This document shows positions 16,074-54,745 of a DNA stretch of 64,000 bases, piece by piece. Location: NCBI GenBank assembly GCA_002356455.1, contig AP017968.1, positions 2,294,001 through 2,358,000 of the forward strand. The letters run 5' to 3'. Every line of letters starts with the position of its first letter. Positions within the stretch are counted from its first letter, which is position 1. The notes below the pieces were generated by a model. The model had not been told where the DNA came from and did not search any database. It was given only the letters and a program-made list of their open reading frames with translations. The DNA is from Fusobacterium varium (GTDB lineage Bacteria > Fusobacteriota > Fusobacteriia > Fusobacteriales > Fusobacteriaceae). Made by a program: the position numbers and the translations under genes.

Positions 16074-19000
16074 TTAGAACTTATAATTAAATCTTACTCC
16101 ATATTTAACTGATGAATCTTTTCTGTGACCTTCATCTGCAGCTTCCACTTCAAATGTCACTCCCATATGGTTTGCTTTCTCTATTGTCAAACCTACTTTT
16201 CCTATGATTTTTCCTTCCTGTTTCTCTGGAGTAATCAGGCTGTAGTATCCTTCCCCTCCATTTTTAAGTCTGGCTTTATTTCCATCATAGTTTTCACCAA
16301 GTTCATACGCATATTTTACATCTCCAGTCAATTTTACTGAAATATCATTTCCAGCATATATTTTTTGATGCGCTTTTATTCCAGCTCCTAATTGTGCACT
16401 GAAATAATCATTATCTTTGATTTGAACTTCCAAACCTCCATTACTTCCAGCCCTTTCTTTAAACTTTCCTATTTTTCCATATTCAAGATCTAAATCAGTA
16501 TATATATCAAGCTGGCTTGAAAGATCTGTATATATTGTTTTACTAAGTTTATTGTCAAAACTTACTGAATAAGTGTTATAGTCAGCTTTATTCTCATAAG
16601 TTTTGTTAAGTTCAATTTTTCTTTTAGCTATATGTCTATTATATCCTAATTCTACCCTAGATAACAATGAAATTTTATACTCATCACTAAAGTTTTTAAC
16701 ATTATGTATCCCTGCTCTCAATGAATATACATCTTCTTTTGAACCGCCATCATCAAATTTAAATTTAGATCCTGCAAATCCTAATGTATAACCATATTTG
16801 CTTCCATATTCAGCACCTTCTTTCTCTTTCATATAAAGAACTCCCATTACTTTATAATCATAATCATCTATTCCAAGTGTTGAATCTTTATAGTTTCCAT
16901 CAGTATAAATAATACTATATTTGCTGCTGTCTTTTGTTAAATTGTATGAAGATTCCAATTCATAAAATGAATTATCAAAAGCTCTATTGATATCCTGCAT
17001 TCTTCCCTGGATAGTTGCATAAATATCTCCTCTCAGCTCTGCAAGAGTTCTAGTGGCTTCTTTCTCGAAACTTCCTGTATCCAAACCATCCAGATATTCA
17101 TTTAAGCCTTTCAATATATCTGCATCTCTGCCCATTCCATTGCTATTTTCCAATATATTATCCAATCCTTTATCAAGAGCATCAAACTGTTCTCCTATAG
17201 TAAGGTCAGCATATGGTCTTTTTACAATAACTAAATGCCCATCACTTGTGACTTTAGCTATAAATAGAGGAGAAGTGACAGGAGTAAGTTTATTTCCTGT
17301 TATAGTTCCTGCTGCTGTATTGACAAAATCTTCTATTAAATAAGTTCTACCATTTCCTGTTGAAGCAAAATTTGAAAGAAGTTTTACTTCTCCGCTTACA
17401 CTATGTGCATTGAACAGTGGAGTTCCAGTTGTTACATCTACATATGCCCCATTAACTATTATAGAACCTGCTGTTGAAAGTGTTCCTCCAATAGCCACAT
17501 ATTTATCATTTATTGTGATATTTCCTTTTGAATCTACAACAACACTTCCTATATTGGCAGTAGAAGATGTTCCTGAAGTATCTTCAGCTTTTCCTGTTCC
17601 AGTAACATATATGTTTCCTCTGTTTACTACTTTTCCACTGCCTTCTATTCCTGTTCCATTAACTACATTGATAGTTCCATCATTTACAAGTTCAGACCCT
17701 ACACTTAAAAGCATTCCAACACCTTCAGTTACATTTATAACAGCATTATTGATTATTGTTCCGCCAGCATATGCTGCCATACCTACAGTAGAAGCTCCAC
17801 AAGCAGCTAATGTTCCTCCTAAATTAATAGTTCCATTATTTACAGCAATTGCTCCATCTCTTACCAGAACACCAATTCCTCCATTATCTATATTCATAAT
17901 TCCATTATTTGTAAATTTAGTTCCTGCTCCTGTTCCAAATACTCCTAATGAATGATCATGATTTACAGTTATTGCAGTTCCTGCTGTATTTACAGCTTTA
18001 CTTCCAGAAGACAGATAGATTCCAACTGAATTTTTGTGTTCTGCTACATTTGCATGGTTTCCTCCTGGTACAGTTGTAGCTCCCACTGTTATATTTCCAG
18101 TATTTGTTATGTCATTATTCCCAGAGGCATAAATTCCAACAGCGGCTTCTCCAAGTACCATATCTGCATCATTATTTATAGTTGCAGTATTTGAAGTAAT
18201 GATGTCTGCTTTTCCTTCTTCCTTTATTACCTGTTGAACATAGATTCCATAACCTCCATCTCCTACATTCCAGTTTCCAGCTGAAGCAGTTATAACTCCT
18301 GTTCCCAGAGCTTTATATATTCCAATAGATGCTTCTGATGTTCCTTTATTATCTACTGTTATATCTCCAGTATATGAAATATTTCCATTTCCAGAACTTA
18401 CTATTCCAACACTTTTTCCAGCTCCTACAGACATATTTCCTGATACCAGCATATTTATATCTTTTCCATAAACACCTACAGCTTTATCAGTTCCAACTGT
18501 AATATTTGGGGCTGTTACAGTCATAGTTTCTGTACCAGTTCCTGCTCCATAGATACCTACGGCTCCTGCTCCAACTGAAATAGGTGCTCCTGTCTGTGAA
18601 ATATTTCCTACATTCACTCCATAGATACCAATGCTGTTGGCTCCTACTGATACAGTTCCTGTTCCTGTATATGTTCCTCCATCAAGATATACTCCTATTG
18701 AAGACTGTACTCCTGATGAAGAAGTTCCAACAAGTACAGTTCCTCCTATATTTAATGCTCCCCCTTCATTATACAATCCGATATTTTTATCTCCTGATAC
18801 ATCAATATTTCCAGTTACTGCTACATTATTGGAAACAGTTCCTTTTACCATTATTCCTACCTGATTCCTTCCTGTTGCTCCAATGGTAGTTCCTGCCAAT
18901 GTTCCAGAAGATTTATTTAATATCAATCCAATAGTATTATTTCCAGTTTGATTTATTGTTGGAATAGTTCCAACTGAAGTAACACTGTCATAATAAATTC

Positions 19001-22000
19001 CTATTGAATGTTTCTCTGATGTTCCAGCTTGTACAGTTATAGCAGTAGTTCCAAATGATGGAGCTGAACTTTTTACATAAGCACCTATTCCTCCATTTTT
19101 TGCTGTAATAGAAGAACCTAAAGTATTTACACTTCCTCCTTCTGCTACTATTCCAATTTTATTGTCAGCTACAAGATTTCCAGAGAATGTGAGATTTCCT
19201 CCATTTGAATATACAAATACTCCATCTGTTCCTACACTGATTTTTGAAATATCGTTTATTATAACAGAAGAAGAAGCTCCATTTACATATACTCCTATTC
19301 CCTTATCTCCTGCTGAAATATTTGCAGAAGTTCCAATTGTTATATTTGAGCCGCTGTCAGCTACAAGTCCTATTGATGTTTCTCCATTTCCAACTCCAAT
19401 AGTTCCATTAACTGTTCCAGTTGTTCCTTTAGCCAATACTCCTATACTGTCTGCTCCCAAAGAAATTGTTCCTATATTTAAAGGTACTCCAGTGACATTT
19501 TCCAATACAACTCCTGTATTATTAGATGATCCAGCAACTGAAGTGATATTATTTGATATTATTCCAGTTACTGTCCCTTTAATATATACACCTATTCCAT
19601 CTGTTCCTGTCATAATCATATTATCATTCTGTATTGATAGAGCTGTTCCGTTATTAGAAGAATAGATACCAATTCCATCTGTTCCTACATTGATTTGCCC
19701 TGTATTTGCTACATCAGCAATATCTGTATATATTCCAATAGAGGCATTACTTGATGATTTTCCTGAGGCAGTTATTATACCACTATTAGCTATTGTTATT
19801 CCTGCTCCTGGAAGTGAACTTCCTTTCATAGCTGCAAGCCCTATTCCACCTGATGATGCTGTTATATTTCCAGAATTTGATATACTTTGCGGTGTAGTTG
19901 TTCCACTGTTATATTCTCCTAAAAGTCCTACTGCTCCATCTCCTACATTAAGATTTCCTGTTGATGACAGACTTCCATTAGATGTTGATGCAAGTGAACC
20001 TGATCCTGTGACATTTATATTATTTCCAAGAGTAAGATTTCCTCCATTATTAAATATTCCTATTCCTCCACCTGACAGGAAATTAAATGTCAGGTTTCCT
20101 GTTATTCCAAGATTTGCAGTTCCTTTATCTACATAGATACCTGCTCCTCCATCAATATTCAAAGTTGCATTTCCTGTTGTCAAAGTAGAATACTCAGTTA
20201 CATATACTCCTACTCCTCCTTCAGTTTTTACAGTTCCATTAAGAACTAAATCCACCCCTGTAAAAGTTCCAGTATCATTTCCTAAATAGATTCCTACTCC
20301 ATTTCTGGCATTTACACTTACATTGTTTATAGTATAAGTTGATGTTATTCCTTTATCTAAAAGTATCCCTACAGATGTGTCTAATGTATTCACTCCAGTA
20401 GTTATCACTGCTCCATTTAATGAAACTGTACCATCTAAGATATACGTTCCTACTGATCCTGTTCCTGTTGTAATATTTCCTGATATTACTGAATTATTCT
20501 TAGCTGTAACTCCTATTGCTCCTGTAGACGCTGAAGAATTTACTGTAAAATCAATCTTAGCATTATCACCGTAAACTCCCACAGCTCCTGAAGCTATATC
20601 CAGAATTCCAGATTTTATTTTATTAGAACCTGTATTTTCCAAATAAATACCTATTCCGCTTGTCACTACTTCTATTTTTCCTGCTGACCCATCAAAGCTA
20701 TTTCCTGCCCCCTCTACATATACTCCTGTTCCTTTATCTGTAGTTATAGTTCCGCTGTTTTTCCCTAAACTTGAAGCAGTCCCTGAAATATACATTCCAA
20801 GATTTTGTCCAGCATCTGTTATTGTTCCTAGATTTTCTACAGAAGCAGTATTTTCTGCTGCCATTCCCACTGAAGTAGTTCCTAAATCATTAAGAAATAT
20901 TTTTCCTGCAGCTGAATTTATTCCCTGACCATTTTCAGAATAGACTCCTATTCCTCCCGCTCCATTTAAAGTAATATCAGCATTTGAAGTATATCTAGAA
21001 TTTCCTCCAACAAAAGCTCCTATATTTCCAGCCTTTCCTGCAAGAGTAGTAATATCTGAATTATTTGAAAGATTTATTCCATCTGCTGCATATATTCCTA
21101 TTGTATTTCCATCTTTTAGATTTATTTTAGAACTGTTAGTTACAGGAGAACTTCCTGTTCCTTTGCTGTAATACACACCAATATTTTTATTTGAAGTGGT
21201 ATTTTCGACATTGATGTCTCCTCCAACAGCATATGCCCCACTTGTAAGATACATTCCTGTTCCTATTCCTGCAGTTGTTTTTAAAGTTAAGTCTGTTGCT
21301 GCTCCTACTCCTATATTTAATTTTCCACCATCACCATACACACCAATAGCGTCATTTTCAGCAGTTACAGTTCCTCCTATATTTGAAGCTCTATCTACAA
21401 ATATTCCAGTTGTTTTTGCTCCTGTTGCCTCAACATTTACAATAAGGTCATTCTCTCCTTTTGAATAAAGTCCAATAGCCTGATTGCTTACCTGTATTTT
21501 CCCATTTCCTATGTATGAACTTTTGCCTGATGAGTTTTCAAGATATATTCCAACTGTTTTATGTCCTGTAGTCACTGGTGTTCCAACTCCATTTACATTC
21601 AAAGTTTTTCCAGCATCTAAAGTTACCTTAGCTCCATTTTTTCCATAAGCAAAGATATTTTTATTTTCATTAGACTGAGAAAAAAGAATATTGTCTTTTA
21701 TTTCAACTTCTGCATTCTCTGCAAATACTCCTACACTTTCTTTTCCAGTAAAAATAATACTTCCTAAAGCATTTAATTCTGCCTTAGCCCCATCTTTTAC
21801 ATATATTCCAGTAGAACTATCTGCTCCTAAATTTATTGTTCCTCCATTTGAAACTGTATTTCCTGTTCCTGAAGCAAACATTCCAATGTGTGTAGAATCA
21901 TTTATATTTATAGTATTACTGTTAATAATTTTTCCTGCTGAAGTATACATTCCTATTGCTCCTGTTTTTCCAGATAATAGATTTATTATTCCAGCATTAG

Positions 22001-25000
22001 TAGCAGTATTATTTAGACTTCCTTTTTTCAGATATATTCCTACTCCATCTTTTCCTATATCCAATTGGGCATTTGAAACAAAATTAAGATTTTCTGCATA
22101 AACAGCTGTTGCTTTTTCAAGATTCTGAGTATTTATCCCAAAATTTAAAGTTTGTGTTTCTGCTCCAGTTCCTTCACCTTTGTAGAATATAGCTGTTTGT
22201 CCTGTTGTTCCGCTTCCATTTTGATTTAAAGTTAAAGTTGTTGTATTAAGCACTGTCTTTTCATTAGCTAATACTCCTATTGCATTTGTACCTAATTTAA
22301 GTGCTCCCACATTTGTCACTTCTGAATCAAAAGCAGCATAAATACCTATAGCTCCTGTACCAACTGAGATATTTCCAGTATTTTCTAAAGTTGCATTACT
22401 TCCATATATACCCACTGCCATTTCTGAGCTTGTAGAATTTCCTATATTTATATTTCCACTATTTTTAGCTGTTGCATCAGTTTTTGTCCCAGATGGTTTA
22501 TTATTGAAAGCATATATCCCTATATTCCCTTCTCCTGCCAGTTCTATATTTCCGCTGTTTTCGATAGATATAGTATTTTCTCCTGCTTTCCCTCCAAATT
22601 CATCTATTATTGGTGTTCCCAATGGCTGTTGCTCTCTATTAGTCATTCCCAATATACCAATAGCTTTATTTCCAGCTACTTTTATATCCCCTTGAGCTTT
22701 TACTTTACTTCCATTTACAGCATATATTCCTACACCTTTATCATTTACAGGTCCACTTCCAGTTTCTACTTCTATAGTTGTTCCAGCCTCTGCATTTATT
22801 TCACCATAATTTATGTATAATCCAATAGCTCCTGAACCTCCAGAATCAGTTCTATTTGCAGATATTTTAGCTCCGCCATCAAGAGAGTTGTATTTTAAAT
22901 TAATTTGAGTGTCAGCTACAGAAACTGCTGCTTTACTTGAACTCATTTCGAGTCCAACAACCTGCCCTTTAAAATAGTCATTGGCATATGTACTGTCTGT
23001 TGAAGCATTTACTTTTACTCCAGCTGCTACATCCAATTTCAATCTTTGAGCCAAAAATCTTCTTGAATAAAAATATCCATCTGAAGTATTCACAGTAGAA
23101 AATTTATCCATATCATTATCAATAGTAAGATCTCCTCCATCTACTGCTGCTACTTTATATTTGTCATATGTTCCATACATATCAGTTCCTGGGTTAATAT
23201 TTATATTTCCACCTAAAGCAGTTATTATAGTTCCCTGAAGATTTGAGCTCTGCAGTCCTGCTGCATTTTTCAAATTAGCAACTATAGCATCATTTGACAT
23301 CATAGTTATAGTTGTATTACTCAATTTTATAGGTCTAGATGCTTCTGGAATATTCAAATCCATTTCAATTCCTGTGGCATTTCCACCAAGTATTATTTCA
23401 GCACCTGTCAAATCAATTTTTCCAACACCATCAGAATATGCTGCATAACCGTCACCACGATATTCTAATTTTGCATTATTTAAATTGATGCTGCTTCCTG
23501 CACCAAAAGAAGCAACTCCTGCTGATCCATTTTTTACATTTATGTCTGCTCCCTGTATATTTATAATAGAACCATTTCCAGCATAAACTGCCAATCCTTT
23601 TGTTACAGGGTTAGAAGAATCATCAACTGTTATTTTCAAACTTTTTCCAGAAGTAAGTGCTATTGTTCCACCATTTCCATAAATACCTGTTGCACCATTT
23701 TCAGCTTTGATGACAGTATTATTATTTATTGTAGTTGCTCCAGTTCCTGTATTATACAGTCCTGATGATTTTTCTCCATTTACTTCTAAAGTTCCTGAAA
23801 GATTAAATTTTCCTTCATTAGAAATAGCAGCATTTTTTTCAGACCCTGTCATTTTAATTGTTCCTGTATTTTCTCCCTGAGTCCACTTATCTACATACAT
23901 TCCTGTACTTTCTTTGCCACCTAGAATAATAGTTCCAGTATTTCTAATATTTATTTTAGACGATAATGCTGTCCCAGTAGCAGATAATCCTGTAGTCTGT
24001 ATAAGACCACTCCCAACAGTTATATTTCCGCTGTTGTATATATGCTGTGTCTGTCCATTAGAATGAGCAACTGTATTTCCACTGCCACTGGTACCAGTAG
24101 TTGTGATATCAGCCTGTATCTGAATTCCATATTTATCAGTTCTTATAAGAGTGCTGTTAGTCGCCCCAGTTCCTATATTAAAGTTTCCCATTACCTGATT
24201 ATTAAATATAAAATCATTAGTATTATTAGCAGAATAATCAAGCAGTCTTAAAAATCCTATTACTTCATTTCCTACTATCTCTACATTAATTCCAAAAAAG
24301 TTAGATATTGGATTTGCTCCACTTAACACACCATGATTCAAATTTCCAGCTTCTGTATAAGGGCTTGGAGCTGAAGAAAGAGATTTTCCTATAGCAAGTC
24401 CTACATTCTTCTGTCCACCAACAGTTATTTTTCCTGCTCCTCCTGATACAGTTACATCATCATAATATACATTATTGGAAGTAAATATATTCTTCATTCT
24501 ATAACCATAGTTATTTTTACCATTTACCTCAATATTTCCAATTTCAACATCAACTGGAATATAAGTTTGAGCTGTATAAGCACCAAAATCTATCCCTATA
24601 CTATTTTCATTATTTATTATAATAACCCCTGTATTTTTAGTCTGGTTATTATTATACTTAGTTCTTCCTGTTTCATTAAGAGCTTCTGTATCTATCATTA
24701 TTCCAATAACATTATAACCAGAATTCAATGTTATTTTTCCTTTATTATTAAATATTGAATAACCAACTCTATTATCCTGACTATCCCATAATTGATGCTC
24801 TACTCCTACAAGTATTTCATATGTTGTTCCTGATACTGGATTTATTTTAGATGAACCATTCAATACTAGTGTTCCAGTGAATTCTGCTGTCTTTGCTCCT
24901 CCACTTTGTCCCAGCCATCCTGATGACAATCCTCCACCCATAGATGGGAATCCATCAGATGTGTGTCGTCCAGCTGGATTATGACTTAGAAACATCTTTG

Positions 25001-26246
25001 TATATACACTATCTGAAGTTCCATAATTCATCTGATAATTTCCACCAATAATAGCATTATGATCTCTTAGTTCATTTATAAAAGCATTTGTTTTTCCTGT
25101 ACTTCCTGGAGCCAATATCTCACTAAAGGAATACTCTACTGTAGTTGAAGCATGTATATTTCCGTTGCTCCATGTAGTGACATTACCTCCAGCTGTGATT
25201 TTTATTGGATTGGCTTCTGTATTTCCTGGAGTTGAATAATTTTCATAGTTTTCTATTACTATGTTGGCATCTATACTTCCTCTCTTAGCCCCATTTTGCA
25301 CTGACCCTATTCCATATGACTGCCCAAATCCCGTTCCTACAAAGTTTAAAGCTGGTGGAGTAAATTCCACTGGTGCTACTATTGTTGGTGTAGATGGTGC
25401 TGCTGGTGGAATTATCATAGTTGGTTCATATCCCTCAGGTGCTGCTGGGAGATTTACAACTATATTTTTTTCTGCTGGTTCAGTTGGAGTTGGAATAACT
25501 GGTGCAGTTATTTCTATTTTATCCACTGCTGATGGTGTTACTACAGTTACCGTCACTCCACTTGGTGCTGATGGCGTTCCTGGTTGAGTTATAGATATAC
25601 TTGGTATTGTTATTGCAACTGGATTCACAGCTCCTGGCAGAGCTCCTAATACAACATTTGGTGTAGTTACATTCACAGATACACTTGGATTAATTTCAGG
25701 CATTTCAGGTTCTAAAAGCTGAATATTGGCTCCTAAATCTATTTCTTCTCTAAATACTGAGGTATCTACAGCTACCCCATTCCCTGACATTATTTTGTCT
25801 TTTCCAATATTCCCAGAAGATTTCAGCATAGATTTTCCAGCTCTTGTTCCATAATATTCATTTACTGCATCTATTGTTTCTTTAAATTCTTTTTCTGTTC
25901 TGTCTTTTGTTTTTCCATTATCCAGATACTGATAAGTAAAAAATACCTGTGTACTTGATATTAGAGGTTTAGAATAAAAATCTCCCTTTCTTACAAGCTC
26001 TACAAAATCTGAATTATATTCTTTTATCAATTTTTCATTTTCAGCTATTTTCCTTTTTATTTCTTCTCTTTCTAATTCAATTCTAGTTAAAATATCTCCT
26101 TTTGTTTCCTGTATTTCCTCTGCTGTTATCCCTGCTCCTAATGATATTCCTCCTGTTATCAGAAAAGCTATCAAAATTGAAAAAGAGAAACTGACTTTTC
26201 TCTTTAAAAATCTTTTTAGAGATTTTTCTATCTCATTTTTTCTCAT
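16074..26246 (-). CDS. Giant type V autotransporter adhesin, 3390 aa
   Basis: Residues 1-40 are the fusobacterial autotransporter N-terminus (EIEKSLKRFLKRK, long hydrophobic core, cut near SLGAG). A charged coiled segment (40-150) and a Pro/Thr/Val-rich stretch (about 180-320) precede a passenger of nearly 2800 residues made of degenerate beta-helix repeats (GxIGVYxxG, GNITVG, NTGTIN types), Asn/Gly/Thr-rich and almost free of cysteine. The last 270 residues form the beta-barrel (YSIIYTDGNY ... FEVEAADEGHRKDSSVKYGVRFNYKF) with the terminal Phe needed for outer-membrane insertion. It is likely a surface adhesin of the RadD/Fap2 type. It is preceded after 12 bp by a small secreted coiled-coil gene in one operon. 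Long plus-strand frames across it are composition shadows. Confidence 0.93.
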   Translation of the reverse strand: MRKNEIEKSLKRFLKRKVSFSFSILIAFLITGGISLGAGITAEEIQETKGDILTRIELEREEIKRKIAENEKLIKEYNSDFVELVRKGDFYSKPLISSTQVFFTYQYLDNGKTKDRTEKEFKETIDAVNEYYGTRAGKSMLKSSGNIGKDKIMSGNGVAVDTSVFREEIDLGANIQLLEPEMPEINPSVSVNVTTPNVVLGALPGAVNPVAITIPSISITQPGTPSAPSGVTVTVVTPSAVDKIEITAPVIPTPTEPAEKNIVVNLPAAPEGYEPTMIIPPAAPSTPTIVAPVEFTPPALNFVGTGFGQSYGIGSVQNGAKRGSIDANIVIENYENYSTPGNTEANPIKITAGGNVTTWSNGNIHASTTVEYSFSEILAPGSTGKTNAFINELRDHNAIIGGNYQMNYGTSDSVYTKMFLSHNPAGRHTSDGFPSMGGGLSSGWLGQSGGAKTAEFTGTLVLNGSSKINPVSGTTYEILVGVEHQLWDSQDNRVGYSIFNNKGKITLNSGYNVIGIMIDTEALNETGRTKYNNNQTKNTGVIIINNENSIGIDFGAYTAQTYIPVDVEIGNIEVNGKNNYGYRMKNIFTSNNVYYDDVTVSGGAGKITVGGQKNVGLAIGKSLSSAPSPYTEAGNLNHGVLSGANPISNFFGINVEIVGNEVIGFLRLLDYSANNTNDFIFNNQVMGNFNIGTGATNSTLIRTDKYGIQIQADITTTGTSGSGNTVAHSNGQTQHIYNSGNITVGSGLIQTTGLSATGTALSSKINIRNTGTIILGGKESTGMYVDKWTQGENTGTIKMTGSEKNAAISNEGKFNLSGTLEVNGEKSSGLYNTGTGATTINNNTVIKAENGATGIYGNGGTIALTSGKSLKITVDDSSNPVTKGLAVYAGNGSIINIQGADINVKNGSAGVASFGAGSSINLNNAKLEYRGDGYAAYSDGVGKIDLTGAEIILGGNATGIEMDLNIPEASRPIKLSNTTITMMSNDAIVANLKNAAGLQSSNLQGTIITALGGNININPGTDMYGTYDKYKVAAVDGGDLTIDNDMDKFSTVNTSDGYFYSRRFLAQRLKLDVAAGVKVNASTDSTYANDYFKGQVVGLEMSSSKAAVSVADTQINLKYNSLDGGAKISANRTDSGGSGAIGLYINYGEINAEAGTTIEVETGSGPVNDKGVGIYAVNGSKVKAQGDIKVAGNKAIGILGMTNREQQPLGTPIIDEFGGKAGENTISIENSGNIELAGEGNIGIYAFNNKPSGTKTDATAKNSGNINIGNSTSSEMAVGIYGSNATLENTGNISVGTGAIGIYAAFDSEVTNVGALKLGTNAIGVLANEKTVLNTTTLTLNQNGSGTTGQTAIFYKGEGTGAETQTLNFGINTQNLEKATAVYAENLNFVSNAQLDIGKDGVGIYLKKGSLNNTATNAGIINLLSGKTGAIGMYTSAGKIINSNTININDSTHIGMFASGTGNTVSNGGTINLGADSSTGIYVKDGAKAELNALGSIIFTGKESVGVFAENAEVEIKDNILFSQSNENKNIFAYGKNGAKVTLDAGKTLNVNGVGTPVTTGHKTVGIYLENSSGKSSYIGNGKIQVSNQAIGLYSKGENDLIVNVEATGAKTTGIFVDRASNIGGTVTAENDAIGVYGDGGKLNIGVGAATDLTLKTTAGIGTGMYLTSGAYAVGGDINVENTTSNKNIGVYYSKGTGSSPVTNSSKINLKDGNTIGIYAADGINLSNNSDITTLAGKAGNIGAFVGGNSRYTSNADITLNGAGGIGVYSENGQGINSAAGKIFLNDLGTTSVGMAAENTASVENLGTITDAGQNLGMYISGTASSLGKNSGTITTDKGTGVYVEGAGNSFDGSAGKIEVVTSGIGIYLENTGSNKIKSGILDIASGAVGVYGDNAKIDFTVNSSASTGAIGVTAKNNSVISGNITTGTGSVGTYILDGTVSLNGAVITTGVNTLDTSVGILLDKGITSTYTINNVSVNARNGVGIYLGNDTGTFTGVDLVLNGTVKTEGGVGVYVTEYSTLTTGNATLNIDGGAGIYVDKGTANLGITGNLTFNFLSGGGIGIFNNGGNLTLGNNINVTGSGSLASTSNGSLSSTGNLNVGDGAVGLLGEYNSGTTTPQSISNSGNITASSGGIGLAAMKGSSLPGAGITIANSGIITASGKSSSNASIGIYTDIADVANTGQINVGTDGIGIYSSNNGTALSIQNDNMIMTGTDGIGVYIKGTVTGIISNNITSVAGSSNNTGVVLENVTGVPLNIGTISLGADSIGVLAKGTTGTVNGTIGVGNGETSIGLVADSGSNITIGTSANISAGDKGIGVYVNGASSSVIINDISKISVGTDGVFVYSNGGNLTFSGNLVADNKIGIVAEGGSVNTLGSSITAKNGGIGAYVKSSAPSFGTTAITVQAGTSEKHSIGIYYDSVTSVGTIPTINQTGNNTIGLILNKSSGTLAGTTIGATGRNQVGIMVKGTVSNNVAVTGNIDVSGDKNIGLYNEGGALNIGGTVLVGTSSSGVQSSIGVYLDGGTYTGTGTVSVGANSIGIYGVNVGNISQTGAPISVGAGAVGIYGAGTGTETMTVTAPNITVGTDKAVGVYGKDINMLVSGNMSVGAGKSVGIVSSGNGNISYTGDITVDNKGTSEASIGIYKALGTGVITASAGNWNVGDGGYGIYVQQVIKEEGKADIITSNTATINNDADMVLGEAAVGIYASGNNDITNTGNITVGATTVPGGNHANVAEHKNSVGIYLSSGSKAVNTAGTAITVNHDHSLGVFGTGAGTKFTNNGIMNIDNGGIGVLVRDGAIAVNNGTINLGGTLAACGASTVGMAAYAGGTIINNAVINVTEGVGMLLSVGSELVNDGTINVVNGTGIEGSGKVVNRGNIYVTGTGKAEDTSGTSSTANIGSVVVDSKGNITINDKYVAIGGTLSTAGSIIVNGAYVDVTTGTPLFNAHSVSGEVKLLSNFASTGNGRTYLIEDFVNTAAGTITGNKLTPVTSPLFIAKVTSDGHLVIVKRPYADLTIGEQFDALDKGLDNILENSNGMGRDADILKGLNEYLDGLDTGSFEKEATRTLAELRGDIYATIQGRMQDINRAFDNSFYELESSYNLTKDSSKYSIIYTDGNYKDSTLGIDDYDYKVMGVLYMKEKEGAEYGSKYGYTLGFAGSKFKFDDGGSKEDVYSLRAGIHNVKNFSDEYKISLLSRVELGYNRHIAKRKIELNKTYENKADYNTYSVSFDNKLSKTIYTDLSSQLDIYTDLDLEYGKIGKFKERAGSNGGLEVQIKDNDYFSAQLGAGIKAHQKIYAGNDISVKLTGDVKYAYELGENYDGNKARLKNGGEGYYSLITPEKQEGKIIGKVGLTIEKANHMGVTFEVEAADEGHRKDSSVKYGVRFNYKF

Positions 26247-26258
26247 AAATCTTCCCCC

Positions 26259-26819
26259 TTAGTTTCTCCCTGTTTTCACTTTTTGTTCCATTGTATCTAA
26301 TTTACTCAAGTATTCATTAAGCCTTTTATTTTCAGATGATAAAATCTGTATTTCATCGTTTTTTAAAATAAATTCTTCATGTACTTCATCAAATTTTTGA
26401 CTTAAAAACACTCTATTTTCTTCTGCTTCTGCTCCTAAAACTTTTTTAAGCTCTTTTATTTCCTCTTCCTCTATTTTCAAAAATGACATTCTTTCTTTTC
26501 CTGCTTGAAATGCTGTAGCTGCTGCTGTTGTTCTCTCTATTGAATTATTTTTACTTCTGAATACTTTTTCTTCAAGAGATTCACTCATGTCTTTTCTAAT
26601 ATCTTCAAGAACTTTCTTCCCCTTTTTTTCCTTTTCTTTTTCTTCAGCTATTCTAGCTTTTTCAGCATCATCTGCTGCTTTTTGTTTTAATTTTTCTTCA
26701 AGTTGTATCTCTTTTCTTATTTGTTCAAGAACTTTTTTTCCTTCTTTTTCATTTATTTCTTGTGAATAAATCATTGTTATACAAGATAAAAAAAGGAATA
26801 CTGCTGCCATTTTTTTCAT
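26259..26819 (-). CDS. Secreted coiled-coil partner protein upstream of the autotransporter
   Basis: 186 residues: a signal peptide (MKKMAAVFLFLSCITMIYSQ) then nearly continuous charged heptads. An internal duplication is visible: GKKVLEQIRKEI near residue 28 and GKKVLEDIRKDM near 67. A second coil runs from about 120 to the end. It has no FadA-like sequence that I can see. Small coiled-coil secreted genes preceding the large adhesin resemble the radABCD arrangement of F. nucleatum, so a chaperone or presentation role for the autotransporter is a reasonable inference. GGGAGAAAG gives the start. Confidence 0.75.
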   Translation of the reverse strand: MKKMAAVFLFLSCITMIYSQEINEKEGKKVLEQIRKEIQLEEKLKQKAADDAEKARIAEEKEKEKKGKKVLEDIRKDMSESLEEKVFRSKNNSIERTTAAATAFQAGKERMSFLKIEEEEIKELKKVLGAEAEENRVFLSQKFDEVHEEFILKNDEIQILSSENKRLNEYLSKLDTMEQKVKTGRN

Positions 26820-31407: not shown

Positions 31408-31631
31408 TTTATTTATCATAAATATCTTTTGATACTCTGAATTTCACTGTTTTTCTTGGATGAATCTTCATAGATTCTTTAGTTACTGGATTGGCTATTA
31501 TTCTTGCTTTTCTTTACTTCAAATATTCCTATATTTATAAATATTAATGAATGACTTTTCTGCAAAGCCTCCTGTATTGTTTCAAGAAATATTTCTATTT
31601 CTTTCAGCGCCTTTCTTGCTGATATTTCCAT
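31408..31631 (-). pseudogene. HU-family DNA-binding protein remnant, N-terminally cut and frameshifted
   Basis: The first frame reads ISARKALKEIEIFLETIQEAL ... FINIGIFEVKKSK, matching helix 2 and the first strands of HU. A shift of frame near 31495 continues with ANPVTKESMKIHPRKTVKFRVSKDIYDK, the HU arm and last strand. About the first ten residues of HU are missing, and its apparent ATG overlaps the autotransporter stop by one base (TAATG). It looks like a truncated HU gene to which the autotransporter end has been joined. Confidence 0.7.
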
Positions 31632-34600
31632 TAGAACTTATAACCCAATCCTGTTCCTACTATCCATTCACCTTTTGTCTTATTCTTTCCAGATTGGTTA
31701 TGTGAATCTCTTTCTACTGCATAGCTTCCCTTTACATCAAACAAGATTCCATTTTCCAGTTCAAGTGTATATTTAGCATTCAATCCTAAGCTATGTTCAT
31801 TCTTATGAGCTACTAAGATATCAAAGCCGCTTCCACCTTTAAATCTTCCTGTGATATATTCTTCATCTGCGCCATTAAGCAGTCTTGTATAGCTTACTCC
31901 AACTGATAATGTACTCTTTCCTTTTTCATGTGGTATCACTTTTTTAAGGTCTAATCCCACTTTAGCTGATGTATAATCAAATGATTGTGAATCTGTTTCT
32001 ATTGCTAAAGTTTTATTTCCCTCATCTGCTCCATCCTGTTTTACATATGTATATGACAGTGTTCCATAAGGTTCTAAGTATAGATTATCTCCAATATTAT
32101 GTGAATATCTTCCATTTAGATAAATATCATAAGTCAAATCATTGTAACTGTCAGAATATTTCATCACTGGTTCTGCTTTAGCAGAAGCCACATTATTTAT
32201 TGCCATTCTATCAGCATCATAATCTCCATACTGGAATCCTGCTCCTGCTGTTACTTTTAGATTTCCAAGATACTTCTTAGCATATCCTCCAATATACAGC
32301 GCATCTCCATCAACTTTTGAGTCATTAGACAAATCAGATTTAAGCTTGTTTCCTCCAACTACTACTCCAGCTTTAAAGCCATCAGATACTCCATACTCTC
32401 CAAGCATATATGCTCCTGTGATTTTTGTATCTGCATCTATATCAGAACTTCCTATATCATAAGTATAGTATCCTTTTCCATAATATGTATCTTTAGTTCC
32501 TCCATCTATATGAGTAAGTCCGCCATATATCATCCATTTTCCTGTATCTGCTTTAAATGAATTTTCAGTAACTATATCTCTGAACATTCCCATTGATTTT
32601 CTTGATAATTCAGAAGAATATGAGTATGGATTTCCTGCATAGATGTCATTTAAATATCCCATAAAAGATGAGAATTTTTCATTAGTATCTGCATTAAATT
32701 CTTTTATACCATCTACAGCCCTCATACTTTGATATATTTTATTTAATTTCTCATAATTTGTATATTCAGGCATTGATAGTGGAAGTGTAGATTTAGTTTC
32801 AACTTTTATTTCTGTATCACTAGTTTTGCTAATGGAGTGTAAATATGAAGTTGTTTCTAAAGTAAATAAATCTCTATATTTAATATCTGGATTTTCCACT
32901 CCATATATTCCATCTCCAAGTTTTATTCCCATATCTATTGTACTTCCATCAGATACTCCATTAAGCACAAGAAGAAGTTTTCCACCATCTGAATCTATTG
33001 TTCCACTACTATTTCCATTCGAAAGTGCATGTTTATTACTATTTGTTCCATCTATTCTTAATACAAGCTCACCGTTTTTACCAATATTAATATCTTTTGC
33101 TCCTGTAATTTCAGAAGTTTCAAATACAGTTACTTTCTGGTTTATATTTATGTTTTCCATATTTGATATTTTATGGAAAAGATTTATATTATCATTTCCC
33201 ACTGCTCTGGAAACGGCTGAACCAAAATTAAGAATATCTCCATTACCTGTTCCACCATCTATATCTCCATTTATTTGAGTGGAATTTCCAATAGATAAAA
33301 TATCATCTCCATCTCCTAAATCAATTTTTCCATTGATAAAAGAATTTCCAGATATATTTACTGTATTAGCTCCTGAATCTCCAGAAATAACAGGAGTAGT
33401 TCTATCTAAGCCACCACCATTGATTGTTACATCTGTACCAGTAAATGAAGCTCCATCTTTAACTGTAACAGCAGTTTTATAGGCATTAATAATTCCACCA
33501 TTAAGAGTGAAATTACCTGCTTTTACTGTTACTGTTCCATTATCTTTATCATATCCAGCTCCATTGATAATAGAATTTGAAATATTTTCATTATTTTCAT
33601 ATTCATTGTATGCGTCCACTCCACCATTTGGAACTATATTTCCTGAACTATCTCTTAAGACTGTATTTATTATAGTATATCCTTCTGTATTTTCTCCAGT
33701 TCCGTTTCCACAAGCAATAGATTTGATAGAAGTAATATTTCCATATACATCTGCGTCAAGAGTTATAGCCATTCCCTGTCCTTCAGGATTAGTGAAAGTA
33801 TTAGTTCCTGAACCATCCTTATCAACTAAAACTGGCATCTGTCCTATTACAAGTCCATAGTTATTGTAGTTAGCAATTCCTGAATTAGAGTCTCCACTAA
33901 TATATATTCCATTTGCACTTCCCATTATAACCCCAGAATTTGAAATTGATTCTATTGTTGATGAGCCAGAATTAGAATAAGAAGAAATTCCATTTTCTGA
34001 ATGCTCTCCACCATCACTATTTCCACTAATAATTCCATAGTTTTTTATATCCCCTATTGCACTAGCTCCCTTCGTAGAATAAGAAAATATCCCATTTCCT
34101 GAATTATCCCCACCATTACTGCTTCCACTTATGCTTCCATAATTTGTTATATCTCCTATTGCACTAGCCTCCTTAGAAGAATAAGAAGAAATTCCACATC
34201 CTGTATATTCTTCACTACCACTACCACTGTTTCCGCTAATAATTCCATAATTTGTTGTATTTCCTATTATACTGTTTGAAGAAGCAAAAGAGAAGATTGC
34301 ATTTCCTGCGAAATAATCACTACGATTATTTGCAATAATAATTCCGTTATTTGTTATATTCCCTATAGTAGAACTAGAAGAATTAGAACTAGAAAAAATT
34401 CCATTTCCTAAAGTATAACCATTTACACTAATAACTCCGTAGTTTTTTATATCTCTTATTGTACTGTTTGAAGTTTCAGAAAAAGAATGAATTCCATGCC
34501 CTACATTACCAGTATTTATTCTAATACTTCCATAATTTATTATATTTTCTATTATACTTGAAAGATTAGAATAAGAATGAATTCCATTTCCTGCATAATC

Positions 34601-35242
34601 TCCAGTATTAGCACTTCCACTAATAATTCCATAATTTTCTATTTTTCTTATTCTACTACTTGAAGTTTCAGAATAGCAAAAAATTCCATTTCCTGTATAA
34701 CCTCCGCCTCCTGGATCACTACCAATAATGCTACCATAATTTATTATATTTCCTATTATACTGCTTGAGGTTTCAGAGAAACAAAAAACTCCATTTCCTC
34801 CATATTCTGCATTTTTAATACTACCACTAATGGTTCCATTATTTGTTATATTTCCTATTGTACTAGTTCCACTATCAGAATGAGAAAGAATCCCATTTCC
34901 TGTATAATCTTGATTTCCAGAACTCTCTATATTTTCATTATTCACTATATTTACTTTAATATTATTTGCATTTACTGTATTATCTATTTTTACAGTTTCA
35001 CTTATATCTACTCCTTCAGGTAATGTCCAGGTAAATTCATTAGCAGAATTTTTTGTTACTGTTCCAATTTCTGTAACATTCCCCGATTTATCTAGTATTT
35101 TAATAGTTGAGCCTTCATATTTTACTGTAACATCTCCAAATGCAAAACTGCTTCCCAATAAAAAAGCTACTACCACTCCCATTGTTATTCTATTCTTTCC
35201 CTTTAGATATCTTTTTAAAGCTTTCTCCATTTCTTTAATCAT
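31631..35242 (-). CDS. Type V autotransporter, 1203 aa, with tandem passenger repeats
   Basis: Residues 1-37 are the fusobacterial N-terminal signal (EMEKALKRYLKGK, hydrophobic core, cut after FAFG). Residues about 113-440 hold ten imperfect repeats of 30-35 aa of the form YxGNGIxSYS..SSxIGxIxNYGxISGS. A beta-helix stalk follows (about 450-900), and the last 280 residues are an autotransporter barrel (GKWMIYGGLTHIDGG ... KGEWIVGTGLGYKF) ending in Phe. GGGAGAGG precedes the ATG. Upstream, 35458-35643 holds a promoter inside inverted repeats that points away from this gene. No equally good promoter faces it between 35243 and 35457, so it may be silent in the sequenced orientation. Confidence 0.92.
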   Translation of the reverse strand: MIKEMEKALKRYLKGKNRITMGVVVAFLLGSSFAFGDVTVKYEGSTIKILDKSGNVTEIGTVTKNSANEFTWTLPEGVDISETVKIDNTVNANNIKVNIVNNENIESSGNQDYTGNGILSHSDSGTSTIGNITNNGTISGSIKNAEYGGNGVFCFSETSSSIIGNIINYGSIIGSDPGGGGYTGNGIFCYSETSSSRIRKIENYGIISGSANTGDYAGNGIHSYSNLSSIIENIINYGSIRINTGNVGHGIHSFSETSNSTIRDIKNYGVISVNGYTLGNGIFSSSNSSSSTIGNITNNGIIIANNRSDYFAGNAIFSFASSNSIIGNTTNYGIISGNSGSGSEEYTGCGISSYSSKEASAIGDITNYGSISGSSNGGDNSGNGIFSYSTKGASAIGDIKNYGIISGNSDGGEHSENGISSYSNSGSSTIESISNSGVIMGSANGIYISGDSNSGIANYNNYGLVIGQMPVLVDKDGSGTNTFTNPEGQGMAITLDADVYGNITSIKSIACGNGTGENTEGYTIINTVLRDSSGNIVPNGGVDAYNEYENNENISNSIINGAGYDKDNGTVTVKAGNFTLNGGIINAYKTAVTVKDGASFTGTDVTINGGGLDRTTPVISGDSGANTVNISGNSFINGKIDLGDGDDILSIGNSTQINGDIDGGTGNGDILNFGSAVSRAVGNDNINLFHKISNMENININQKVTVFETSEITGAKDINIGKNGELVLRIDGTNSNKHALSNGNSSGTIDSDGGKLLLVLNGVSDGSTIDMGIKLGDGIYGVENPDIKYRDLFTLETTSYLHSISKTSDTEIKVETKSTLPLSMPEYTNYEKLNKIYQSMRAVDGIKEFNADTNEKFSSFMGYLNDIYAGNPYSYSSELSRKSMGMFRDIVTENSFKADTGKWMIYGGLTHIDGGTKDTYYGKGYYTYDIGSSDIDADTKITGAYMLGEYGVSDGFKAGVVVGGNKLKSDLSNDSKVDGDALYIGGYAKKYLGNLKVTAGAGFQYGDYDADRMAINNVASAKAEPVMKYSDSYNDLTYDIYLNGRYSHNIGDNLYLEPYGTLSYTYVKQDGADEGNKTLAIETDSQSFDYTSAKVGLDLKKVIPHEKGKSTLSVGVSYTRLLNGADEEYITGRFKGGSGFDILVAHKNEHSLGLNAKYTLELENGILFDVKGSYAVERDSHNQSGKNKTKGEWIVGTGLGYKF
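33915..34906 (-). repeat. Tandem passenger repeats within the second autotransporter
   Basis: Ten degenerate units of roughly 90-105 bp encode the GNGIxSYS ... NYGxISGS motif. Neighbouring units share enough DNA for slippage or recombination to change repeat number. Confidence 0.7.
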
Positions 35243-35457: not shown

Positions 35458-35643
35458 AAAAGTTCTCTTATATGGATAAAAGCGAACATAAAATAGTCAT
35501 AATTACTTTGTTCACAGGGGGTCATTTTTTTAAAGGTGTTTTCCCTAAAAATATTTTTATCTTGACTTTATCAATTTTAGAGATTATAATTGATAAAGTT
35601 AAAATGTATAAAAGTTCGCTTTTATCCATTAAAGAGAACTTTT
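35458..35643. repeat. 30-bp inverted repeats bounding a promoter: candidate invertible switch
   Basis: Left arm 35458-35487 and right arm 35614-35643 are inverted copies identical at 28 of 30 positions (12 perfect outer bases AAAAGTTCTCTT, two mismatches, 16 perfect inner bases ATGGATAAAAGCGAAC). The 126-bp interior contains a consensus promoter directed to the right. Inversion would direct it to the left, at the autotransporter. The arms are richer in G+C than the surroundings. No recombinase gene is next to it. Confidence 0.7.
35562..35599 (+). promoter_or_regulatory. Consensus promoter with overlapping operator, inside the inverted repeats
   Basis: TTGACT (35562-35567), 17-bp spacer, TATAAT (35585-35590). 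A perfect 12-bp inverted repeat, ACTTTATCAATT (35565-35576) and AATTGATAAAGT (35588-35599), overlaps both boxes as a repressor operator would. In the present orientation it reads away from the autotransporter into a region with no plus-strand gene. Confidence 0.8.
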
Positions 35644-36364: not shown

Positions 36365-37213
36365 CTAATTCTCTGATGTGAATAAAAAGTCTTTTACAAG
36401 GCTGTTCTCTTTTAGCTCTGCATAAATACTAGTTTTATTTTTTTCAAAAAGTGCTGTTAAAATTATATTACAAAGTTCCATAGGAACTATATAAGAATTA
36501 AAAAAACCATTATTTTCAACAGATATTTTAAAAACAATATCACTCAAAAAACTTATTTCAGAAAATACATTACTTGTAACAGTTATTATTTTTGCTTTCT
36601 TTTCTTTTGCCAGCTTTACAGCTTTTATCTCATCATTTAAAAATCTGGGAAAAGCAAATATTATAACAACATCTCCTTTTTTTATATGAGAAAAAGCTTC
36701 ATATAGTCCAAGTCCGCCTTCATTTACACATTCTGCATTAAATCCAAGTCTTTTTATATGCCAAAACATAAACTGTGATATAGCTCGACTTGAACCTATT
36801 CCTAAAAAATATATTTTCTTAGCCTCATCTATCATTTCTACAGCTTCATTTACTTGATCAAAATCTACATTTAATAAAAATTCTTTTATATTTTCAAGAT
36901 CAGCATTAACTATTTTATTTGCTATATCATTTTTAGAATTAAAATTATCCCAATTTTTTACTATTCTATCATCTGGACTTGTTTCACTAAGTTCTAAAGC
37001 TATATAATTTTTAAAATCATTAAATTTATTAAACCCCATAATTTTGGAAAATCTTAAAACAGAAGCATCACTTACTCCTATTTCTTTTCCCAAATCTAAT
37101 GCTGATAGAAGCATTACTTTTTTAGGATTTTTTACAAAAAATTCAGCAATTTTCTTTTCTACTTTAGTAAGCGTTTTATAATTTTCCTTATAGAATTTAT
37201 GTATTTTATCCAT
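36365..37213 (-). CDS. MurR/RpiR-family transcriptional regulator
   Basis: 282 residues. An N-terminal HTH_6 domain (LTKVEKKIAEFFVKNPKKVMLLSALDLGKEIGVSDASVLRFSKIMGFNKFNDFK) is followed by a SIS phosphosugar-binding domain (about 120-250, IYFLGIGSSRAIS and VVIIFAFPRF). These sense sugar phosphates or amino-sugar phosphates. It is divergent from alanine racemase with a 153-bp gap, so control of that gene or self-control is likely, though the ligand is unknown. Confidence 0.9.
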   Translation of the reverse strand: MDKIHKFYKENYKTLTKVEKKIAEFFVKNPKKVMLLSALDLGKEIGVSDASVLRFSKIMGFNKFNDFKNYIALELSETSPDDRIVKNWDNFNSKNDIANKIVNADLENIKEFLLNVDFDQVNEAVEMIDEAKKIYFLGIGSSRAISQFMFWHIKRLGFNAECVNEGGLGLYEAFSHIKKGDVVIIFAFPRFLNDEIKAVKLAKEKKAKIITVTSNVFSEISFLSDIVFKISVENNGFFNSYIVPMELCNIILTALFEKNKTSIYAELKENSLVKDFLFTSEN

Positions 37214-37366: not shown

Positions 37367-38422
37367 ATGGTTATCAATTCAATTAAAATGGTTATCAATC
37401 AAAAAAATCTATTACATAACATAGATTACTTAAAAAAATTAAGAGGAAAAAATATCCTTCCTGTTGTTAAAGCCAACGCTTATGGACACGGGGTAGAGTT
37501 GATAGTAAAGGCTCTTTATACTGGTGGACAGAAAGAAGTTGCCGTAGCACGTTATGTTGAAGCAGAAAACATCTTGAAAATGAACTTAGGAAATGATTTT
37601 AGAGTTCTCGTCTTTGAAAGTATTGGAGATATTGAATTGATAAAAAATAATCCTAATCTGGACATAGCTGTCAATGATCTTAATGAACTAAAAGATTTTG
37701 TAAAAGCTGGAGTCTCATCTGACAGAATGCAGCTTAAAATAGATCTTGGGTTTGGAAGAAATGGTATATCTCTTTCTGAAATATCTGAATTAGAAAAATT
37801 CACTGATGAAAATAATTTAAAATTTAAAGGAATATTTTCACATCTTTTTGCTGTAAATTACGAAGATGGACTAGAATTAATAAACTTATTCACAGATGTA
37901 GTAAATTCTATAGGAAAAGACAAATTTGAAATGATACATCTGCAAAATAGTGCTGCTATAATGAATTACAATTGTGAAATAGCTACTCATATGAGAGTAG
38001 GAATGCTTACATATGGGTTGCAGGAAGTTGGTTATTTTGATCCAAATTTAAAACAAGTCTTTTCTTTAGAAGGACAGATAGCTGGTGTAAGAGATATTGA
38101 AGATCATAAATATGTTGCATATGAATTAAAAGATGATTTAGATATTGAAGGATGTAAATATTTGGCAAAAATAAAAATAGGATATGGTGACGGTTTTCTT
38201 AAAAGAAATGAAAAAAGTAAATGTATTATTAATAACAAAGAATTTAAAATAGTTCAGGTAACTATGGATAATACTTTTATAGAAGTTGATGGAAGTGTAA
38301 AAGAGGGAGATAAAGTTCTTTTATACAATGATATTACTAAAGCTGTTAATTTCACTGGCATGAATATATATGAACTTTTAACAATATTGAGTCCCAGAAT
38401 TCCTAGGGTATATAAATATTAA
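37367..38422 (+). CDS. alr: Alanine racemase family, PLP-dependent
   Basis: 351 residues, slightly short for the family. PLP lysine Lys35 in VVKANAYGHG, substrate-site block LKIDLGFGRNGIS, HLQNSAAIMN, and MRVGMLTYGLQ precede the C-terminal beta domain with the second catalytic base Tyr273 in KIGYGDGF and LSPRIPRVYKY at the end. It interconverts L- and D-alanine for the cell wall. AGGAGGAG precedes the start. Some relatives act on other amino acids (serine, lysine), which the sequence does not exclude. Divergent MurR/RpiR suggests sugar-linked control. Confidence 0.88.
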   Translation: MVINSIKMVINQKNLLHNIDYLKKLRGKNILPVVKANAYGHGVELIVKALYTGGQKEVAVARYVEAENILKMNLGNDFRVLVFESIGDIELIKNNPNLDIAVNDLNELKDFVKAGVSSDRMQLKIDLGFGRNGISLSEISELEKFTDENNLKFKGIFSHLFAVNYEDGLELINLFTDVVNSIGKDKFEMIHLQNSAAIMNYNCEIATHMRVGMLTYGLQEVGYFDPNLKQVFSLEGQIAGVRDIEDHKYVAYELKDDLDIEGCKYLAKIKIGYGDGFLKRNEKSKCIINNKEFKIVQVTMDNTFIEVDGSVKEGDKVLLYNDITKAVNFTGMNIYELLTILSPRIPRVYKY

Positions 38423-51943: not shown

Positions 51944-53381
51944 AAAAAAAGCTGAGTAACATTTAAAAAAAATGTTTTACTCAGCTCTCTTTTTTGTATA
52001 ATATAGTTACCACCCTAATTATACAAAGGAGACATTCATGCAAATCAAACATATTATCTCTAAAGTCAATATAACAAATCTTTTAGGTAAAATCAAGAAA
52101 TATTTTAAAAATGAACATTTTGAGGATGTTAAACAGACTATTCAAAAATTCTTAGCTTGTTCTATTGATAAATCTTTTCTCTCTCTTCAATGCCCTAAGT
52201 GTCATGAGGCGCATAAAATTAAAGTTACTTGTAAATCTAGATTTTGTCCTTCCTGTGGTAAACGTTATTCTGCTGTTTGAACTGAAAAAACTTCCACTTC
52301 TCTTATTGATGTTAAACATAGAAGTGTCCTTTTTACTATTCCTGAAGAACTTAGAATGTTTTTCTTCTATGATAGAGACCTTTTAACTAAGCTTGCTTAT
52401 GCTGTTAATGATGTTTTTAAATATCAATTTCATAACATTAAAGCAAAAAATCAAAGAATTCATAAAATTTCAAAATATTCCTCTAAATACTTTACTAACT
52501 CAGATATCATTCATTATGGATTGATTACTGTTATTCATACCTTTGGGCGCGATCTTAAATGGAACCCTCATATTCATGCTATTGTTACTTTAGGTGGATT
52601 CAATAAAAACTTCCAATTTCTTGAAAAAAAATATTTTCATGTCAATTCCATTGCTGGACAATGGAAAAAAATGGTTATTGATATTGTTAAATCTGGAAAT
52701 TATGACAAGCCTGAAATTAAAGCTAAAGCTTATGCTGCTGCTAACTACCTTTATCGCAAAAATACAAGATTCTTTTTCAATGTTGCAAAAAATGATTTAA
52801 ATAATAATATTTATGCAATTAAATATATTGGCAGATATCTGTCAAGAGCTCCTATCGCAGAATATAAAATTGTTGATTTCTATGATAATAAGGTTACTTT
52901 CTATTATGAAAGTCTTGCTGATGATAAACAAAGAATTGAGCTTACTTTAGATGTGGAAACATTTCTTTCCAAATTAATTATTCACATTCCCCCTAAACAT
53001 TTCAAAATGATTAGGCGCTTTGGAATCTATTCTAGAAATATTAAATCAGAACTTAAAAACATCATGAAATTCATGAGAAAATATGTCTCTAAATATTCCA
53101 ATTCTACTTTTTATCAACTTGAAATATGGAACGCTTTTGGAGTAAATCCTTTTTATTGTTTTAAATGTAATGCCAGAATGAAAGTTAAAAAAATATCATA
53201 TTTTAATATACATACAGGCTCCATTTGCTGGAAAGAATATCGCTAAACAGCTGATTAACAATCAGCTTTTTTGTGCTGTCAATTTTAATCTTATTCAATT
53301 AATATATCTAATATGAATACAAAATAATTAACATTTTTTATTTTTTCAACAAATTTATCAAATTATAATTTCCTAAGAAAT
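51944..53381 (+). mobile_element. IS91-like element, copy 1
   Basis: From hairpin GCTGAGTAA...TTACTCAGC at 51951 to CCTAAGAAAT at 53381, 1431 bp, exactly the length of copy 3. The left-end hairpin is preceded by A7. After the transposase comes a hairpin AGCTGATT / AATCAGCT and about 110 bp of non-coding tail shared by all copies. Copy 2 begins directly after it. Confidence 0.85.
52038..53246 (+). CDS. IS91-like HUH transposase, copy 1, interrupted by in-frame UGA
   Basis: The N-terminal part is a zinc-binding domain (CPKCHE ... CKSRFCPSCGKRY); UGA at 52278-52280; the same frame continues to a Y2-type transposase with HUH motif NPHIHAIV and the tyrosine helix YIGRYLSRAPIAEY. Total 402 codons plus the UGA. 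Homologous proteins usually have an aromatic residue, often Trp, just after the zinc ribbon, so UGA may stand for UGG. A hairpin CACTTCT-N18-AGAAGTG starts 15 bases after the UGA. Either recoding or a shared dead codon. Confidence 0.8.
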
Positions 53382-53388
53382 AAAAAAA

Positions 53389-54686
53389 GCTGAGTAACAT
53401 TTAAAAAAAATGTTTTACTCAGCTCTCTTTTTTGTATAATATAGTTACCACCCTAATTATACAAAGGAGACATTCATGCAAATCAAACATATTATCTCTA
53501 AAATCAATATAACAAATCTTTTAGGTAAAATCAAGAAATATTTTAAAAATGAACATTTTGAGGATGTTAAACAGACTATTCAAAAATTCTTAGCTTGTTC
53601 TATTGATAAATCTTTTCTCTCTCTTCAATGCCCTAATTGTCATGAGGCGCATAAAATTAAAGTTACTTGTAAATCTAGATTTTGTCCTTCCTGCGGTAAA
53701 CGTTATTCTGCTGTTTGAACTGAAAAAACTTCCACTTCTCTTATTGATGTTAAACATAGAAGTGTCCTTTTTACTATTCCTGAAGAACTTAGAATGTTTT
53801 TCTTCTATGATAGAGACCTTTTAACTAAGCTTGCTTATGCTGTTAATGATGTTTTTAAATATCAATTTCATAACATTAAAGCAAAAAATCAAAGAATTCA
53901 TAAAATTTCAAAATATTCCTCTAAATACTTTACTAACTCAGATATCATTCATTATGGATTGATTACTGTTATTCATACCTTTGGACGCGATCTTAAATGG
54001 AATCCTCATATTCATGCTATTGTTACTTTAGGTGGATTCAATAAAAACTACCAATTTCTTGAAAAAAAATATTTTCATGTCAATTCCATTGCTGGACAAT
54101 GGAAAAAAATGGTTATTGATATTGTTAAATCTGGAAATTATGACAAGCCTGAAATTAAAGCTAAAGCTTATGCTGCTGCTAACTACCTTTATCGCAAAAA
54201 TACAAGATTCTTTTTCAATGTTGCAAAAAATGATTTAAATAATAATATTTATGCAATTAAATATATTGGCAGATATCTGTCAAGAGCTCCTATCGCAGAA
54301 TATAAAATTATTGATTTCTATGATAATAAGGTTACTTTCTATTATGAAAGTCTTGCTGATGATAAACAAAGAATTGAGCTTACTTTAGATGCAGAAACAT
54401 TTCTTTCTAAATTAATTATTCACATTCCCCCTAAACATTTCAAAATGATTAGGCGCTTTGGAATCTATTCTAGAAATATTAAATCAGAACTTAAAAATAT
54501 CATGAAATTCATGAGAAAATATGTCTCTAAATATTCCAATTCTACTTTTTATCAACTTGAAATATGGAAAGCTTTTGGAGTAAATCCTTTTTATTGTTTT
54601 AAATGTAATGCCAGAATGAAAGTTAAAAAAATATCATATTTTAATATACATACAGGCTCCATTTGCTGGAAAGAATATCGCTAAAT
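53389..54686 (+). mobile_element. IS91-like element, copy 2, split by the IS1182-like element
   Basis: Begins at the same hairpin as copy 1. Two bases after the transposase stop it is cut by the IS1182-like end; its tail resumes at 57896 and runs to about 58009. The 21 bases lost at the junction are exactly the 3' hairpin of the element. Confidence 0.8.
53476..54684 (+). CDS. IS91-like HUH transposase, copy 2, with in-frame UGA
   Basis: Same layout as copy 1, UGA at 53716-53718. It differs from copy 1 by a few residues (Lys/Asn in the CPNC box, Phe/Tyr in NKNYQF, Val/Ile, Val/Ala, Asn/Lys) and by several silent changes. No other disabling mutation is present. Protein sequence is identical to copy 3. 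Confidence 0.8.
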
Positions 54687-54745
54687 GGGGCTGTTGCAAA
54701 TTAGTGATTGATAAACTAATTTGTGCAGCCTCTCTTATTTTACAT

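Follow-up and report, generated by a model that had tools for sequence, protein, structure and literature searches.

If the promoter that lies between inverted repeats at 35458-35643 of this window (the whole stretch of 64,000 nucleotides analysed, from Fusobacterium varium Fv113-g1) is able to turn round, the autotransporter gene beside it would be governed by a switch; the question is whether it can, what would turn it, and whether it stands alone. The answer that we favour, and consider likely, is that the segment is an invertible promoter sequenced in its OFF orientation, one of about 25-30 that rest on a single family of recombination sites. The flipping of this particular copy, the activity of its promoter and the role of the recombinase proposed below, here called recB, remain inferences.

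Anatomy of the element

The anatomy of the element is shown directly by sequence. Its arms, at 35458-35487 and 35614-35643, are identical at 28 of 30 positions and enclose 126 bp; within the surrounding 12 kb they form the sole inverted pair of 30-mers matching at 25/30 or better (with a loop of up to about 300 bp), and five order-1 Markov resamples contained no such pair. The inverted repeat around the promoter is real and not a product of chance. Each arm is moreover itself a dyad, a feature absent from the original prediction: it holds a 26-bp recombination-site-like sequence in which GTTC half-sites flank a 6-bp core, here ATGGAT. In the left arm (plus strand) this site is GTTCTCTTATATGGATAAAAGCGAAC at 35462-35487, with its core at 35472-35477, and in the right arm (minus strand) it occupies 35614-35639, reading GTTCTCTTTAATGGATAAAAGCGAAC on the minus strand, with its core at 35624-35629. 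The core boundaries were defined from within-pair covariation (see below).

An invertible promoter should lie between inverted repeats that adjoin the start of a gene, and this one does. The sigma-70-type promoter TTGACT-17-TATAAT (11/12 matches to consensus) at 35562-35590 on the plus strand points, as sequenced, away from the autotransporter, and both its motif and its orientation are kept in homologous elements. The presumed controlled gene (31631-35242, minus strand) encodes 1203 aa with a PF03797 beta-domain (E = 3.4e-26), and its start is 215 bp to the left of the element. Inverting the segment in silico moves the promoter to 35539-35511 on the minus strand and gives the autotransporter a leader of about 262 nt. 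The original prediction had described the arms, the promoter, the position of the gene and a leader of about 260 bases, all of which held on recomputation.

Its further claim that no comparable promoter faces the autotransporter nearly held. A weaker match, TTTATA-18-TATAAT (10/12), runs from 35612 to 35583 on the minus strand inside the element, and it faces the gene as sequenced because ATTATAAT, at the overlapped -10, is palindromic. This match has not been kept in the G010 homologues of the element, and promoter-like matches in the region occur at chance level (23 found against 19.8 +/- 4.0 expected), but it leaves room for an OFF state that is leaky. A transcript from the 11/12 promoter would traverse the right arm, where a hairpin is followed by U-rich sequence (z about -4), and it is conceivable that this combination attenuates transcription in either orientation.

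A family of sites with locus-specific cores

The original prediction had called for a genome-wide search with the arm sequence and for a cognate recombinase. Across the Fv113-g1 genome, which comprises a chromosome of 3,965,155 bases and plasmids of 89,623 and 68,063 bases (PMC5720691, Table 1), a 29-base arm pattern allowing up to three mismatches found 26 sites (control, 0), and a relaxed dyad pattern gave 52 forward and 58 reverse matches (control, 1 and 1). Because most sites match on both strands, these matches correspond to some 55-60 places, or roughly 25-30 pairs. With one mismatch allowed, the site occurs in four of 61 Fusobacteriaceae genomes, namely Fv113-g1 and its congeners G008, G009 and G010, where the numbers of pairs are similar, and in none of the other 57. 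No exact copy of the site turned up in genome_contigs or viral_contigs, and searching genome_contigs at the protein level returned no relative. We compiled 88 paired elements across the four genomes, a list that is incomplete for G008-G010. The site family is thus shown by sequence, and the element at 35458-35643 is, very probably, one member of a large family of switches rather than a single switch.

Strong evidence for site-specific exchange comes from the way in which the arms vary. For this comparison 59 pairs were picked by overall arm identity (at least 19/26), without requiring a matching core. Their cores were identical in all but one case (58/59), whereas permuting arms within genomes produced a mean of 18.2 identical cores and a maximum of 32 over 20,000 trials. 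Within pairs, 0.6% of core positions and 16.7% of half-site positions were mismatched; between loci, the corresponding values were 23% and 18%. The half-sites of one locus are therefore no more alike than those of different loci, and conservation within a locus is confined to the core. Positions 11-16 covary within pairs and the neighbouring positions do not; positions 11 and 16 vary across loci yet match within every pair. Because the loci are related by duplication, a Fisher p-value overstates this evidence, and the permutation and the contrast among positions are the safer reading. Nor do we count as evidence the 87/88 matching cores in the full set of elements, which favoured matching cores by construction.

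Tyrosine recombinases act at inverted half-sites around an overlap of 6-8 bp that is identical between partners, which is what these sites present; a serine invertase calls for identity over a 2-bp overlap only, and the covariation of positions 11 and 16 does not meet that description. The core pattern, itself shown, would be expected if a tyrosine recombinase with a 6-bp overlap acts on the sites, and this is the likely reading, though inferred from sequence alone; a 2-bp serine overlap, an RNA stem spanning the whole arm and simple inheritance of transposon ends all fail to account for it. Cores would stay identical within a locus while half-sites drift because exchange requires matching cores. 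One pair alone has cores that differ (ATACAT and ATCTAT): locus L087 of G010 (C1:1564473-1564649), which sits between two neighbouring autotransporter loci that each carry one of its cores and which may for this reason be a recombinant that has become locked.

If segments of this family do invert, both orientations should be found among homologous loci, and they are. Comparison of element interiors with their flanks yielded 196 concordant and 20 discordant pairs, and four loci (L064, L225, L236 and L238) explain all 20 of the latter. The clearest is a pair of sugar-transferase loci in G008, L238 and L237, whose identity rises from 69.9% as they stand to 93.5% after an in-silico flip between core centres, with the inner half-sites swapped and the outer half-sites kept. 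Flipping likewise raises identity from 69.9 to 87.0% for L225, from 78.1 to 84.0% for L236 and from 59.9 to 69.2% for L064.

The locus in the window has its own counterpart in G009, where the order is the same: alanine racemase, RpiR-family regulator, inverted-repeat element, autotransporter, peptidase C26, amidohydrolase and symporter. In the window the regulator (36365-37213, minus strand; 98% identical to its G009 counterpart) and the alanine racemase (37367-38422, plus strand) mark one side of the cassette, and the peptidase C26 gene (30439-31167, minus strand) marks the other. The G009 element carries TTGACT-17-TATTAT facing the autotransporter, that is, in the ON orientation and opposite to homologous elements within G009, and the autotransporter there is a different paralogue from that of the window. 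In the same neighbourhood of G010 (L250, C1:1762000-1771500) no autotransporter lies between the regulator and peptidase C26, and the presence of the cassette here thus varies between genomes; L250 offers an empty-site comparison that could show how autotransporter cassettes come and go.

The existence of flipped copies at homologous and syntenic loci is shown. The comparison of orientations that the original prediction had proposed was run on congener genomes, and its interpretation of the segment as an invertible promoter, OFF as sequenced, is supported by these copies (including that at the syntenic position in G009) and by the matching cores. That the element is an invertible promoter is, on this comparative evidence, likely but inferred, as there are no read-level data on inversion in Fv113-g1.

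The orientations are also strongly skewed, a bias that is likewise shown. Where an autotransporter locus has a clear promoter, this points away from the gene in 45 cases (14 in Fv113-g1, and 11, 10 and 10 in the other three genomes). The one ON autotransporter locus, L064, was scored as unclear in the automatic tally owing to a second match on the other strand, and was called ON from the alignment. Each of these states is an inference from promoter consensus, made on consensus assemblies, and since every one of the 14 tallied Fv113-g1 loci is OFF, it remains possible that the system in that strain is locked, which the same count would also fit.

Promoters that apparently face their gene were seen at other loci, among them L238 (sugar transferase) and L050, whose gene, without a Pfam hit, we take to be chain-length-determinant-like. 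Small HU-like DNA-binding genes (PF00216) directly adjoin family elements at L212, L224, L216, L069, L073, L095, L233 and L234, and at L095, L212, L224 and L234 the promoter apparently faces the gene; nucleoid-type regulators that vary in phase would be unusual.

Candidate recombinases and rival explanations

Among the tyrosine recombinases found, one group of small proteins alone tracks the presence and absence of the sites. Its representative in Fv113-g1, P0002 (recB), has 198 aa and is encoded at 3156432-3157025 of the chromosome, with an identical copy at 3237238; one of these copies is 3.5 kb from a family element. Orthologues in G008, G009 and G010 are 80-90% identical, and elsewhere nothing exceeds 56% except the paralogue P0001 (recA). 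As expected of a tyrosine recombinase, P0002 matches PF00589 (E = 1.1e-21), and its residues R44, H146, R149, H172 and Y181, which we take from knowledge of the family to be catalytic, are invariant. The region around recB, recombinase included, is duplicated in Fv113-g1 as identical copies about 81 kb apart (L139 and L140). A search for inverted repeats near distant P0002 relatives in other genera found none at a strict threshold, but it is uninformative, since it also misses true elements such as L038.

The paralogue recA, 74-76% identical to recB and present in three of the four site-bearing genomes, lies inside a unique inverted repeat of its own, of 26-27 nt (L143:3082-3887, L150:2677-3481, L154:2975-3779 and L158:2042-2825). 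Its segment, built on this different site, provides a fifth flipped case: between G008 and G009 it is 51.8% identical as it stands and 92.3% identical when flipped, with conserved flanks, which links the recA/recB group of proteins to inversion in these species. The recA gene neighbours a cluster that encodes two short proteins, which we take to be FadA-like, consistent with the named FadA pair.

Because recA has its own site and has decayed in G010, whose main sites stay intact, the main family is better assigned to recB. We regard recB as the likely enzyme, an inference that rests on presence and absence in four genomes. In the proposed mechanism, recB would bind both GTTC...GAAC half-sites of each 26-bp arm and cut at the edges of the 6-bp core, the strands would be exchanged between the two arms, and the promoter, once turned round, would transcribe the autotransporter with the leader given above; the flipping of this copy in vivo, the control of the gene by its promoter and the identity of recB as the enzyme are all inferred from sequence alone. 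A bolder reading, no more than possible at present, is that one dedicated tyrosine recombinase runs a genome-wide and strongly OFF-biased switching of adhesins and capsule-type genes, in which locus-specific cores partly insulate the loci from one another, such that each cell shows few autotransporters, perhaps one, at a time.

Other explanations deserve to be weighed against an invertible promoter moved by recB. The presence, within a single genome, of numerous similarly long copies that end in inverted repeats could point to a family of MITEs that spread upstream of surface genes carrying an outward promoter, with no switch involved. This we consider very unlikely, since the 6-bp core alone stays the same in both arms of a pair and the remainder of each arm diverges, flipped copies break exactly at the core, and the elements occupy a regular position ahead of genes, together with conserved flanks; our rejection rests on the core and flip evidence and not on target-site duplications. 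It is less improbable, but still unlikely, that the arms serve a fixed promoter as RNA or transcription elements, for example as hairpin terminators or attenuators, and that the segment no longer inverts in Fv113-g1. The hairpin through the right arm with its U-rich sequence, and the one orientation common to 45 of 46 autotransporter loci, speak for this view; against it, homologous loci and the syntenic locus show opposite orientations, and an RNA stem between the arms would not limit covariation to six positions. A role for the hairpin is nevertheless compatible with a switch, to which it may be an addition.

The remaining alternatives accept inversion but name another agent. The original prediction had put forward, as a distant candidate, a large serine recombinase encoded at the window's left edge, and ~26-bp dyad sites are indeed used by serine invertases. 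That this protein or another serine invertase is responsible now seems very unlikely, and the suggestion failed: a 2-bp overlap leaves positions 11 and 16, which vary between loci and match within pairs, unaccounted for, and the profile does not follow the sites, in that G008, which has them, has a single weak PF00239 match and site-free congeners have several. Both the 6-bp overlap and the presence/absence profile favour the 198-aa tyrosine recombinase instead. A harder alternative to dismiss is that recA or a housekeeping Xer protein does the work, given the closeness of recA to recB and the presence of Xer-type recombinases throughout. Neither is excluded and both remain possible; Xer proteins, however, occur in site-free genomes too, and recA is the less likely agent for the reasons already given.

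Known switches and the wider genome

Invertible promoters moved by tyrosine recombinases are already known, including one for an autotransporter: in uropathogenic E. coli, a member of a different phylum, the ipuS-ipuR-upaE system has such an element controlling an autotransporter and shares recombinases among several switches (PMC6083910). That system, however, comprises three switches with unrelated repeats of 7-16 bp, in contrast to the ~25-30 Fusobacterium loci built on one 26-bp dyad family with locus-specific 6-bp cores. FimB and FimE of E. coli are, like P0002, small tyrosine recombinases, about 200 aa long and made up of the catalytic domain, and they flip the fimS promoter, but the fimS repeats are 9 bp (PMC6083910) and P0002 shares merely 21-22% identity with these proteins over 49-75 residues, so that its membership of their group is unsupported beyond weak similarity around the catalytic motifs. 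In Clostridioides difficile, RecV is one tyrosine recombinase serving several unlinked surface and signalling switches (PMC5903667), although its repeats are mostly unrelated to one another and do not form a single site family with a core rule. Mpi of Bacteroides fragilis is a global serine invertase that uses a single site family to act at the promoters of many surface genes; the likeness extends to that arrangement but not to the enzyme, given the 6-bp overlap and the tyrosine candidate found here. The system proposed for Fusobacterium stands apart from these in its scale, in basing all its loci on one family of sites whose cores are specific to each locus, and in the group of bacteria that carries it.

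The original prediction could name no published example in the genus, and we likewise found no report of invertible promoters in Fusobacterium in the open-access literature; subscription papers and preprints were outside our scope, and priority is not established. The main text of the report on Fv113-g1, a strain that came from a patient with ulcerative colitis and for which 44 autotransporters were described, makes no reference to phase variation, inversion, promoters or recombinases (PMC5720691). If many of those 44 are behind OFF-biased switches, cultures and reference genomes would under-report the surface repertoire. The site family makes the question directly testable, in that public Fv113-g1 DNA reads (PacBio and mate-pair, DRA005489) and RNA-seq data (DRA005507) are available and the core rule makes predictions about which partners each site can recombine with.

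Elsewhere in the window, three nearly identical 296-aa transposase genes (PF04986, Y2_Tnp) are arranged head to tail at 52356-56048 and likely represent the IS91-like element reported for Fv113-g1. To the left of the autotransporter locus, an open reading frame of 3390 aa (16074-26246) and a 186-aa gene that precedes it (26259-26819), both without a Pfam match, probably encode a giant surface protein and its small partner.
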